This document shows, piece by piece, positions 7,213 through 28,291 of a DNA stretch of 64,000 bases. The notes under the pieces were generated by a model, which saw only the letters and a program-made list of their open reading frames with translations, was not told the origin of the DNA and made no database searches. The translations under genes were made by a program, and so were the position numbers. Every line of letters begins with the position of its first letter. The first letter of the stretch is position 1. The DNA lies in the NCBI GenBank assembly GCA_036268875.1, contig DATATI010000029.1, positions 186,001-250,000 of the forward strand, read 5' to 3'. This stretch comes from Polyangia bacterium. GTDB lineage: Bacteria > Myxococcota_A > Polyangia > Fen-1088.

Positions 7213-8673
<1,461 letters not shown>

Positions 8674-25884: not shown

Positions 25885-26106
25885 TCAGTCGATCTCGACC
25901 TCTTCGACGACGCCGGGGCAGCGCCAATGCGCCGGGTGCCAGCGACCGCGCGGCCCGCGGTGGCCTTCGATAAGGACGCCGCCGCGACAGGGCGGGCGTT
26001 CGGGGCGCGCCACCACCCGCTCACGCACGACACAGCCAGAAATCGCGCCCACCGTGCTCAAAACAAGCGCCGGCAGGCCCAGCCGGAGAACCTTCGTCGT
26101 CCCCAT
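25885..26106 (-). CDS. Small lipoprotein with Trp/His-rich C-terminus (YXWGXW-like)
   Basis: 73 residues from ATG 26106, preceded by GGAAG with good spacing. A signal peptide ends with the lipobox VGAISGC. The mature part is Arg/Pro-rich and ends in GRWHPAHWRCPG, similar to the short W/H/G-rich repeats of YXWGXW-type secreted proteins. Unlike the shadow frames around it, it has a complete lipoprotein signal. Function unknown. It lies downstream of the exosortase gene on the same strand. Confidence 0.65.
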   Translation of the reverse strand: MGTTKVLRLGLPALVLSTVGAISGCVVRERVVARPERPPCRGGVLIEGHRGPRGRWHPAHWRCPGVVEEVEID

Positions 26107-26194
26107 CGTGGCTTCCATGGACCGGATCATGGGACCGAAATCGGCGGGGTGGAAGACTGGGGCGTTATTTTTTTTGACGGCCGGGCGCCGCCCG

Positions 26195-27856
26195 TCACAT
26201 CCACAAACCCCAGGCCCCGGCCAGCAGTGCGAACAGCACCAGCACGGCGTTGGTGACGGCGTGGGCGATCACCGCGTCGGCCAAACGCCCGCGGGCCCGG
26301 AACGCCAGGGCATAGCAAAGACCGGCCAAAAAGCCGGCCAAAAGCCGCTTGTGCAGAAGCCCGAAGGCCAGCGACGAGACCAGCAGCCCGGTCACCGTGA
26401 TCGCTGGCGGTGCCAGCTCGTCGAAGGCGGCGTTGCTCAGGCGGCGGGCGAGAAAACCGCGAAAGGCCAGCTCCTCTGCCAGGGGAACCACCATCAAGGT
26501 GGTCAACAGTCGAGCCGCAAAACCGAAGCCGTGCGGCGCGGCCGGCGCCGTCGCTGCGTCGGCGGCGAGCGGCAACAACAGATCGATCCCCAGCCAGATC
26601 GCCGCCACCAGCAGACCGATCGGCGCCGCGAACCACGACACGCGCCACAGCGCCCTCCATGACGGCTGACGATACGTCGCCGAGAATGCCGCCAGCACGG
26701 CCAGGCCGACCAGCGGGCGCAGAACATAAAGAGGCTCGCGCCCCTCGACGGAAAAGGCGCGCGACACAAGACCAGCCACCACCAGGGCCAGGAACGGAAC
26801 CAGATACGGCGCGGCCAGGTTAACCGTGGCCGTCGGAGCGGCCGCCGAAACCGCGGCCGTCCGCGAGAACCATGGTGATCGCAGCGCCAGCGCCACCGTC
26901 GACAAAGCCACGCCGCAAAACAGCAGCGTGCCGGCGTAGGAATGAAATCCGCCCGCGCCGATCTCCGGCGAGATGAACGCCCCCACCAGCACCAGCGCCA
27001 CCAGGCGCACGATGTTGGCGATGAACGGCACCACTGTCCCGATGGCCAGCAGCCAAAGCGCCCGCGGAAAACGCAGCCGATCGCGAAACAGCCACAACGC
27101 TGCCAGCAGGAACACCCAGGTCAGTCCAACGCCTTCGTAGCCCGAACACTGAGGCGCGATGTCGACGACGAAGCCGCGCGTACCGAACGCCAGCTTGGCC
27201 GGATCCACGATCACTTGGCGCACGAACAGGTGCAGCAGCAGCGACGACAGACCGAAGGTCACCCGGCGCAGCGGCAGCCACAATCCTTGCGACAGCTTGC
27301 CCACGCCGGCCGCGCCCAGTCCCACCGCCAGCGACAGCGCCAGCGCCGGCGCGTATGTCCGGGTCAAGCCCGGAATCCTCCTCGGCGGCAGGATGGTCAG
27401 CGACCAGCTCACCACCGTCGCCGCCAGCAGCGCCAGCCAGCCGACGACCAGCGCGGTGGCGTGCCTGGGGGCCATGCCGTCGTCGCGAAACACCGCCGCG
27501 CTGACCACCCCTAGGCCAGCAAAGCAGAGCAGGTGCGCCAGCAGGAACGGCGGCAGTCGGTGGCCGGCCAGGTCGCGCGTCAGCGAACCAGAAAGACCGC
27601 GCCGCACCTTCGCCCCGGCGACCAGGAACAACGCCGCGAACACCACCGCCCCGATGCGGACAAAAGAACTGGCGTTACGGATGATCGCTGTCCACCATCC
27701 ATCGGGCAGGCTCGCCAGCGCGTCCGAGTCAAAGCGAATGCCGAGGACCAGACCTTCGGCCAGCAGCAAAATGAGCAACGCCACCCAGCGCCCGATCGGA
27801 AGCGCGGTTTTGGGCTCCGGGCGGGCGTCACTGGGGGCGTCGTCGGAAGGCATCAA
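26195..27856 (-). CDS. xrtE: Exosortase fused to a CPBP (CAAX-type) protease, exosortase E family
   Basis: 553 residues, multi-pass membrane protein. The N-terminal half is an exosortase with catalytic Cys237 (APQCSGYEG), Arg284 (ANIVRLVAL) and His305 (GFHSYAG). The C-terminal half is a CPBP intramembrane protease with EE461-462 and Arg466 (PLAEELAFRG), His502 (LLHKRL) and His532/Asn536 (AHAVTNA). This fusion is the known exosortase E/protease of the VPEID-CTERM system. The gene 91 bp upstream on the same strand encodes the only visible target. Exosortases cleave C-terminal sorting signals at the membrane and are thought to transfer the protein to a surface ligand. What the protease half does is not established. 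Confidence 0.9.
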   Translation of the reverse strand: MMPSDDAPSDARPEPKTALPIGRWVALLILLLAEGLVLGIRFDSDALASLPDGWWTAIIRNASSFVRIGAVVFAALFLVAGAKVRRGLSGSLTRDLAGHRLPPFLLAHLLCFAGLGVVSAAVFRDDGMAPRHATALVVGWLALLAATVVSWSLTILPPRRIPGLTRTYAPALALSLAVGLGAAGVGKLSQGLWLPLRRVTFGLSSLLLHLFVRQVIVDPAKLAFGTRGFVVDIAPQCSGYEGVGLTWVFLLAALWLFRDRLRFPRALWLLAIGTVVPFIANIVRLVALVLVGAFISPEIGAGGFHSYAGTLLFCGVALSTVALALRSPWFSRTAAVSAAAPTATVNLAAPYLVPFLALVVAGLVSRAFSVEGREPLYVLRPLVGLAVLAAFSATYRQPSWRALWRVSWFAAPIGLLVAAIWLGIDLLLPLAADAATAPAAPHGFGFAARLLTTLMVVPLAEELAFRGFLARRLSNAAFDELAPPAITVTGLLVSSLAFGLLHKRLLAGFLAGLCYALAFRARGRLADAVIAHAVTNAVLVLFALLAGAWGLWM

Positions 27857-27947
27857 GGCCGGGCCACCGATCCGGTGTGCGATGGCGTCGTTCGGAACCA
27901 GAACGAAGGACCGCCAGCCGTGCAGAGGCGACCGAGGCTGCGGTCGG

Positions 27948-28175
27948 CTACGCGGGGTTTTTGCCGCGGCGGGCCTTCAGCAGCAAGCTGCCACCCACCA
28001 GCAGCGAACCGATCGCGCCCAGACCGGCCGGATCGATCTCCGGGGCTGAATGCGACGGCGGACCCTGATGAAAATCTTCGTGCCCGTTGTCGGCGTGTGC
28101 CGGCGAGGCCAGCAACACCAAAAGACCCAAAGAAGCGACGAACCCGAACAATCGACCGACGGTGGACTTCATCAT
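27948..28175 (-). CDS. PEID-CTERM sorting-signal protein, very short exosortase target
   Basis: 75 residues. AAGGAG lies five bases before an ATGATG start. Residues 1-28 are a signal peptide (ends SPAHA). Residues 45-48 are PEID, followed by a hydrophobic helix (GLGAIGSLLVGGSLLLKA) and a basic end (RRGK). This is the VPEID-CTERM arrangement with Ala in place of the first Val. Only residues 29-44, rich in His, Pro and Asp/Glu, lie between the two processing signals. The next gene is the exosortase E fusion, so it is a dedicated substrate/enzyme pair. Confidence 0.85.
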   Translation of the reverse strand: MMKSTVGRLFGFVASLGLLVLLASPAHADNGHEDFHQGPPSHSAPEIDPAGLGAIGSLLVGGSLLLKARRGKNPA

Positions 28176-28199
28176 GTCTCCTTGTTGAGAGGGTGATCA

Positions 28200-28229
28200 T
28201 GAATACCACCGACACGCTTACCCGGTCAA
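28200..28229 (-). promoter_or_regulatory. Possible promoter of the PEID-CTERM/exosortase operon
   Basis: Minus-strand -35 TTGACC (28229-28224), 18-base spacer, -10 TATTCA (28205-28200). The start codon follows about 25 bases later. The surrounding 28200-28270 stretch is the most A/T-rich part of this region and must also serve the divergent opp operon; a short palindrome ACAAATTGT lies at 28231-28239. Confidence 0.35.
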
Positions 28230-28291
28230 TACAAATTGTACGTCATCATACATTTATATATCGAGATATGAGGGCCAAGGAGAAGGCGGAC

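Follow-up and report, generated by a model that had tools for sequence, protein, structure and literature searches.

The closest described relative of the locus reported here is the exosortase E/VPEID-CTERM system (TIGR04162/TIGR04161), with which it shares the enzyme architecture, the catalytic residues, the gene order and a tripartite target tail; the tail itself differs from that of TIGR04161 and falls short of the model. Archaeosortase A, which has no fused protease, is a homologous Cys membrane enzyme that acts, like exosortase E, on a tail composed of a motif, a helix and a basic end (PGF-CTERM); unlike exosortase E, it is archaeal, and its cargo consists of the S-layer glycoprotein and other proteins. 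The substrates of archaeosortase A are cut and lipid-anchored (PMC7157517), and exosortase-type enzymes are generally viewed as transpeptidases (PMC11980579). Exosortase-CAAX fusions were noted in the description of the family (PMC1569441), and MrtX of Myxococcus xanthus, a CPBP enzyme, is a proven sorting protease (PMC11980579).

In the rhombosortase/GlyGly-CTERM and MrtJ/JDVT-CTERM systems, as in the pair described here, a single target is encoded next to its enzyme. Such one-enzyme/one-target pairs of the rhombosortase/GlyGly-CTERM type have been called dedicated systems (PMC3237569), and the MrtJ pair has also been described (PMC11980579). Rhombosortase is a rhomboid cutter and MrtJ a CPBP enzyme alone, whereas the present enzyme joins an exosortase to a CPBP protease in one chain. 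A further likeness, for which we claim no homology on the Cys side, is to AgrB-MroQ/AgrD, where a membrane Cys protease and a CPBP protease also meet a small precursor with a variable core; the agr peptides of 7-9 aa are cut from the 40-50-aa AgrD by AgrB and MroQ (PMC12312760). The agr core, however, needs a ring-forming residue and an operon with a sensor kinase, neither of which is seen at the window (the whole stretch of DNA analyzed, 64,000 nucleotides).

The fusion enzyme and its 75-residue target

The following features of the window are relevant:

26195..27856, minus strand: XrtE, a predicted fusion of exosortase E with a CPBP (Rce1-like) glutamic intramembrane protease, from profile matches and conserved residues
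27948..28175, minus strand: predicted exosortase E target, VPEID-CTERM-like, 75 aa, from the open reading frame, tail profile and ribosome site
Parts of the target (residues): signal peptide 1-28; exported part 29-44; PEID motif 45-48; then a membrane helix and a basic tail
28176..28264, minus strand: region upstream of the target with a ribosome site and a promoter-like match
25885..26130, minus strand: small putative lipoprotein with lipobox AISGC, from the open reading frame; judged to lie outside the system

XrtE is 553 aa long when read from the TTG at 27856, or 552 aa from the ATG one codon on. It matches TIGR04162 (exo_VPEID) with 195.6 bits (curated cut-off, 150), PF09721 (exosortase) with an E-value of 4.4e-11, PF02517 (Rce1-like) over residues 446-538 with an E-value of 8.3e-15, and TIGR03008 (a CAAX-related protease family) with 113 bits. 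Three residues of the exosortase half (C237, R284, and H305) and six of the protease half (E461, E462, R466, H502, H532, and N536) do not vary across an alignment of 80 sequences, namely the window enzyme and 79 homologues from several phyla, and the CPBP motifs EExxxR, H, and HxxxN are all present in the C-terminal part. The original prediction described this membrane protein as an exosortase E/protease fusion with the triad Cys237/Arg284/His305 and the CPBP residues EE461-462, His502, and His532; all of these residues were correctly named, and the score over the TIGR04162 cut-off confirms the assignment. An AlphaFold model obtained with 58 sequences (mean pLDDT 88.3, compared to only 69.7 for an earlier model with 7 sequences) is all-helical save for a small element of three strands that directly precedes Cys237, and XrtE had no PDB match at E<=0.001 in a whole-chain fold search or at E<=0.01 in a profile search. 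Judged from its sequence, XrtE belongs to a known type of membrane enzyme, exosortase E fused to a CPBP protease, and is complete. Immediately past its stop codon, at 26160-26195, a GC-rich palindrome is followed by eight A (minus strand), in an orientation that is wrong for a normal XrtE terminator.

The XrtE gene lies on the same strand as the target gene, about 92 bp after the target stop. A Shine-Dalgarno sequence, AAGGAG, is found 5 nt before the target ATG, and further upstream is a promoter-like match, TCGATA-18-TACAAT (28264-28235), which is a consensus match only. The predicted signal peptide ends in LLASPAHA, with the cut placed before a D, and the predicted exported part is DNGHEDFHQGPPSHSA (16 aa); signal-peptide cuts here and below were set by a simple von Heijne-type rule, not by SignalP, and an error of a few residues is possible. 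The C-terminus consists of PEID (in the context APEID), a hydrophobic stretch and the tail KARRGKNPA.

When all six-frame open reading frames of the window were searched with a tail profile made from 45 other exosortase E targets, the window sequence being left out, the target was the best match (18.7 bits, E 6.9e-5) and the next had an E-value of 3.8. The TIGR04161 VPEID-CTERM model (cut-off 33 bits) did not match the window target even at E<=10. This model, which matches 15 of 30 collected mini-targets (best E 2.3e-15), is narrow, and too narrow for the window target, whose tail APEIDPAGLG... lies outside it and fits a wider set with PEID, PEIN, PEIG, PEIS, PELD, PEMD, and similar motifs. 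Over 32 residues, the tail shares 66% identity with that of the target in a Planctomycetota exosortase E locus (L026). With a signal peptide, PE[ILM]x, a helix, a basic tail and a position beside XrtE, the 75-residue protein is assigned as an exosortase E target in the wider sense. Its anatomy and the leave-one-out tail match beside an enzyme over the TIGR04162 cut-off thus bear out the earlier description of a protein with signal peptide, PEID, helix and basic tail, serving as a VPEID-type target of exosortase E. The small lipoprotein gene that had also been pointed out downstream does exist (25885-26130), but its link to the pair was not confirmed: no counterpart was found near the enzyme gene in any exosortase E locus, and we rejected it as a part of the system and regard it as a bystander.

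The genome that carries the pair measures 6.15 Mb and is 96.8% complete. It contains one exosortase-family match, and the single copy above the TIGR04162 cut-off is the window XrtE. The tail profile gave one match in the whole genome (E 2.2e-9), the next (E 0.007) being the C-terminus of a transporter-like protein, and no PEP-CTERM proteins were detected by profile search. Having one exosortase, one VPEID-type tail and no PEP-CTERM proteins, the organism has in this pair its whole detected exosortase system. The single target foreseen in the original prediction is therefore confirmed within the sensitivity of the searches. The refuting case that it named, a genome with numerous distinct and longer VPEID-CTERM proteins, was looked for in the same searches and did not materialize. 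The pair is classed as a dedicated sorting system in the sense of PMC3237569, a classification that 96.8% completeness keeps short of absolute. Three other genomes (G036, G411, and G446) are alike, with one exosortase each and no PEP-CTERM proteins; another three (G423, G426, and G434) harbor 2-3 exosortases and 62-101 PEP-CTERM matches, yet only one VPEID-type tail each, on a small target beside XrtE.

Exosortase E loci across phyla

We assembled 80 exosortase E loci picked by the enzyme alone, using an alignment of seven enzymes as the query; a contig scan with a single sequence gave no relative. The loci belong to Acidobacteriota, Planctomycetota, Pseudomonadota, Myxococcota, and Thermodesulfobacteriota, a set in which the alphaproteobacterial VPEID-CTERM proteins are hardly measured. 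A tail was found at most 2.5 kb from XrtE in 66 of the 80 loci. There were 85 matches in 362 kb near XrtE compared to 4 in 404 kb of farther flanks, and the near matches lay on the enzyme strand in 84 of 85 cases (69 upstream, 13 downstream). A whole-genome search of 46 genomes with XrtE revealed at least one tail in 45 of them, exactly one in 24, and up to 8. Among 103 tail matches, 85 were in open frames of at most 150 aa and 12 in frames of more than 200.

No constant third gene was found beside XrtE, and no other neighbor family is common to more than 11 loci. A gene of the PF04116 fatty acid hydroxylase/sterol desaturase family is located near exosortase E in 9 loci from several phyla (including L063:8053-8916), and polysaccharide-export genes are likewise found in 9 loci; neither is beside the window pair. 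One Myxococcota genome (G302) has three exosortase E copies (L018, L022, and L023), two of them with their own adjacent small target. Cultured isolates with a small target include Methylobacter (L078/L093), Saccharophagus sp. K07 (L079), Aquisphaera insulae (L060), and Singulisphaera sp. GP187 (L103). In L037 and L052, a 238-aa ordinary PEP-CTERM protein (VPEPS) is encoded upstream of XrtE beside PEID mini-targets, so that two sorting codes adjoin. The contig of L050 is labeled as a Klebsiella pneumoniae MAG and carries an exosortase E akin to those of Myxococcota and Planctomycetota; the label is probably wrong.

The original prediction considered an export of about 16 residues unusual, and proposed a comparison of mature lengths of targets near exosortase E elsewhere. 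For the 83 distinct targets encoded next to the enzyme, predicted exported lengths ranged from 2 to 318 residues with a median of 9; in 42 of them the length was at most 10, with a peak at 3-7, and the 16 residues of the window target ranked 47th. The claim of unusual length is thus refuted, small targets being the norm, while the view that the product is a peptide rather than a protein agrees with the 16-residue predicted exported part. Examples of extremely short exported parts are those of L085, MMNKLAVVALLAIGTSVSLLA/SV-PEIDPASGG..., and L058, MNRLLSLSLLALAVTFTAGA/TSV-PEID... (slash, predicted cut), and short-cargo targets recur in four phyla. At the other extreme, several targets in each of three Pseudomonadota loci (L043, L096, and L102) have exported parts of 150-320 residues; around the exosortase E of these loci, three or four proteins of about 200-390 aa carry the same tail, and there is no mini-target. 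On the predicted cuts, the tiny exported part is real, yet it is the rule for the exosortase E family. The nearly cargo-less substrates found family-wide are the interesting part, whereas the 16-residue export of the window target is ordinary in this company. We found no description of this pattern in the literature searched; the curators of TIGR04161 and TIGR04162 may know of it.

Conservation of the targets and fate of the exported peptide

In 46 tails, P and E are invariant, and L15 and G18 are conserved in more than 90%. Of 49 targets whose pre-motif part is short, 36 have a strict signal-peptidase AxA site, compared to 22.9 ± 2.7 (maximum 32) in 2000 shuffles, whereas a loose test for [AVSTG]xA gave no separation (43 real, 42 shuffled). 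The excess of AxA sites over shuffles suggests that the precursor is processed at its N-terminal end too.

These results bear on whether the mini-target is cargo at all. It might instead be a helper of XrtE, binding through its PEID helix to hold, stabilize or regulate the enzyme, or carrying a transferred group, with the exported stretch as a mere spacer. Conservation confined to the tail would suit a helper, as would exported parts that can be as short as 2-5 residues with a spacer-like richness in Val, Ala, Pro, and Gly, and the adjacency of the two genes in most loci; moreover, Flavobacterium johnsoniae needs both xrtF and an adjacent system-associated gene for biofilm and colonization (PMC10936215). 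We nevertheless consider a helper unlikely, since the same tail on the targets with 150-320 exported residues beside XrtE in some Pseudomonadota (L043, L096, and L102) behaves as a true substrate signal, the conserved signal-peptidase sites would be unexpected if the hairpin stayed whole, and up to 8 tails occur in one genome. Alternatively, the useful product could be the freed C-terminal helix and basic tail, trimmed by the CPBP half. Apart from the signal peptide, nothing but the tail is conserved in the target, and the exosortase does come with a fused CPBP protease, but recognition by the enzyme explains this conservation, and on long cargo the same tail is a plain sorting signal; this explanation is scarcely credible.

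The exported part behaves differently from its flanks. For 24 related pairs, mean identity was 56% in the signal peptide, 21% in the exported part and 75% in the tail; the pairs were picked on signal peptide and tail similarity, so that both of these values are biased upward and what can be learned is confined to their contrast with the middle. The exported stretch varies even between near-identical orthologues (GGGLEAA in L033, GGPNPT in L045), and also between tandem paralogues such as the three genes in L074. Longer and partly conserved cargo is found in some Pseudomonadota, where L078 and L093 are 59% and L079 and L094 53% identical. When mapped on the enzyme tree, the class of exported length changes at least 15 times. 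These changes, together with the identity of about 21%, make a sequence-specific peptide signal unlikely.

The same data were used to assess whether the exported peptide is a secreted signal, or pheromone, matured by a membrane Cys protease and a CPBP protease as AgrD is by AgrB and MroQ. The parts are alike, with a precursor of 40-75 aa, a membrane Cys endopeptidase and a CPBP protease, and the tandem paralogues of L074, L085, and L037 share leader and tail but vary in the exported stretch. Such a signal is, however, hard to reconcile with exported lengths of 2-318 residues and a sequence that is unconserved even between near-identical orthologues (L033 and L045); many exported peptides lack a Cys or Ser from which a ring could form, and no receptor or kinase is a constant neighbor of XrtE. 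We judge a pheromone quite improbable, and the original suggestion that the product may be a signal is weakened, the exported stretch being the least conserved part of the target. The exact peptide sequence would matter little, and the selected feature would be the making of something with a VPEI(D) end. The comparison shows the cargo of the exosortase E family to be dispensable in sequence and nearly so in length.

We favor the two other readings offered for the peptide, a surface modifier or a donor for another molecule. In the mechanism we propose, to which we give about an even chance, the fusion would cut the target and transfer the short product onto a lipid or glycan of the envelope, as a dedicated two-gene exosortase E/VPEID-CTERM cassette. 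The 75-aa precursor would be exported by Sec, and signal peptidase would take off residues 1-28, as predicted. From the tripartite anatomy of the target, the C-terminal helix would anchor the remaining 47-residue peptide in the inner membrane and place APEID at the periplasmic face, next to XrtE. The invariant residues and what is known of the family suggest that Cys237 would then cut at or near PEID and hold the peptide as an acyl-enzyme, while the helix and basic tail would be discarded; the CPBP half would assist in this or, probably, break down what is left of them. If archaeosortase A and sortase are a guide, the peptide of about 16-20 residues (down to about 5 in relatives) could finally be joined to a lipid or glycan of the envelope through an amine or hydroxyl, yielding a small surface lipo- or glycopeptide. 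The fatty acid hydroxylase and polysaccharide-export neighbors hint faintly at an envelope acceptor, with the PF04116 gene as a possible source of a lipid acceptor. Two observations speak against a conjugate: XrtE has no constant neighbor that would make an acceptor, and the extreme targets leave 2-3 residues, from which a useful anchored product is difficult to imagine.

Distribution, origin and significance

Exosortase E was found in none of 17 genomes of the family to which the window organism belongs, and in 6 of 379 genomes sampled in its phylum (E 1e-30 or better). In the enzyme tree, the window XrtE is nearest to L026 and L042 of Planctomycetota (support 99), apart from the main Myxococcota set. 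Lateral gain of the window XrtE is likely, although bins may be mis-assigned. In a comparison of synteny, the neighboring solute-binding protein was absent from all 17 family relatives, and no empty site was shown. A broken exosortase E is present in a related class member (L025, G044:C28, about 7478-8542), with the protease half frame-damaged and the exosortase half gone; the genus of G044 is that of G036 and G183, which both have an intact exosortase E.

The patchy spread and the decaying XrtE in L025 raise the question of whether the pair is a relic or neutral passenger, left from a sorting system that was formerly of use and has since lost its cargo by erosion. This is very improbable in view of catalytic residues that are invariant in 80 sequences across phyla, a target that fits an independent tail profile and keeps a good ribosome site, and the recurrence of short-cargo targets in four phyla.

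Mass spectrometry has missed the C-terminal ends of ordinary exosortase substrates, which are large; one example is a study in which the PEP-CTERM domain yielded no detected peptide (PMC12188702). In the window organism, where a single enzyme and a single 75-aa target make up the whole detected system, the product would be purifiable and its C-terminal group directly readable; relatives with expected products of 5-10 residues are likewise suited to such a reading. The window cassette is thus a good place to learn what exosortase E enzymes make, and near-dispensable cargo is something that any model of exosortase E must explain. We tentatively suggest, as a possibility with the balance tilted against it, that exosortase E in several phyla is mainly a maker of very short modified peptides rather than a protein sorter, with ribosomal precursors of 50-75 aa that signal peptidase and exosortase would cut 2-16 residues apart, the stub being joined to an envelope lipid or glycan. 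If true, this would represent a small peptide-conjugate pathway in Gram-negative bacteria, of which the window pair would be one minimal system.
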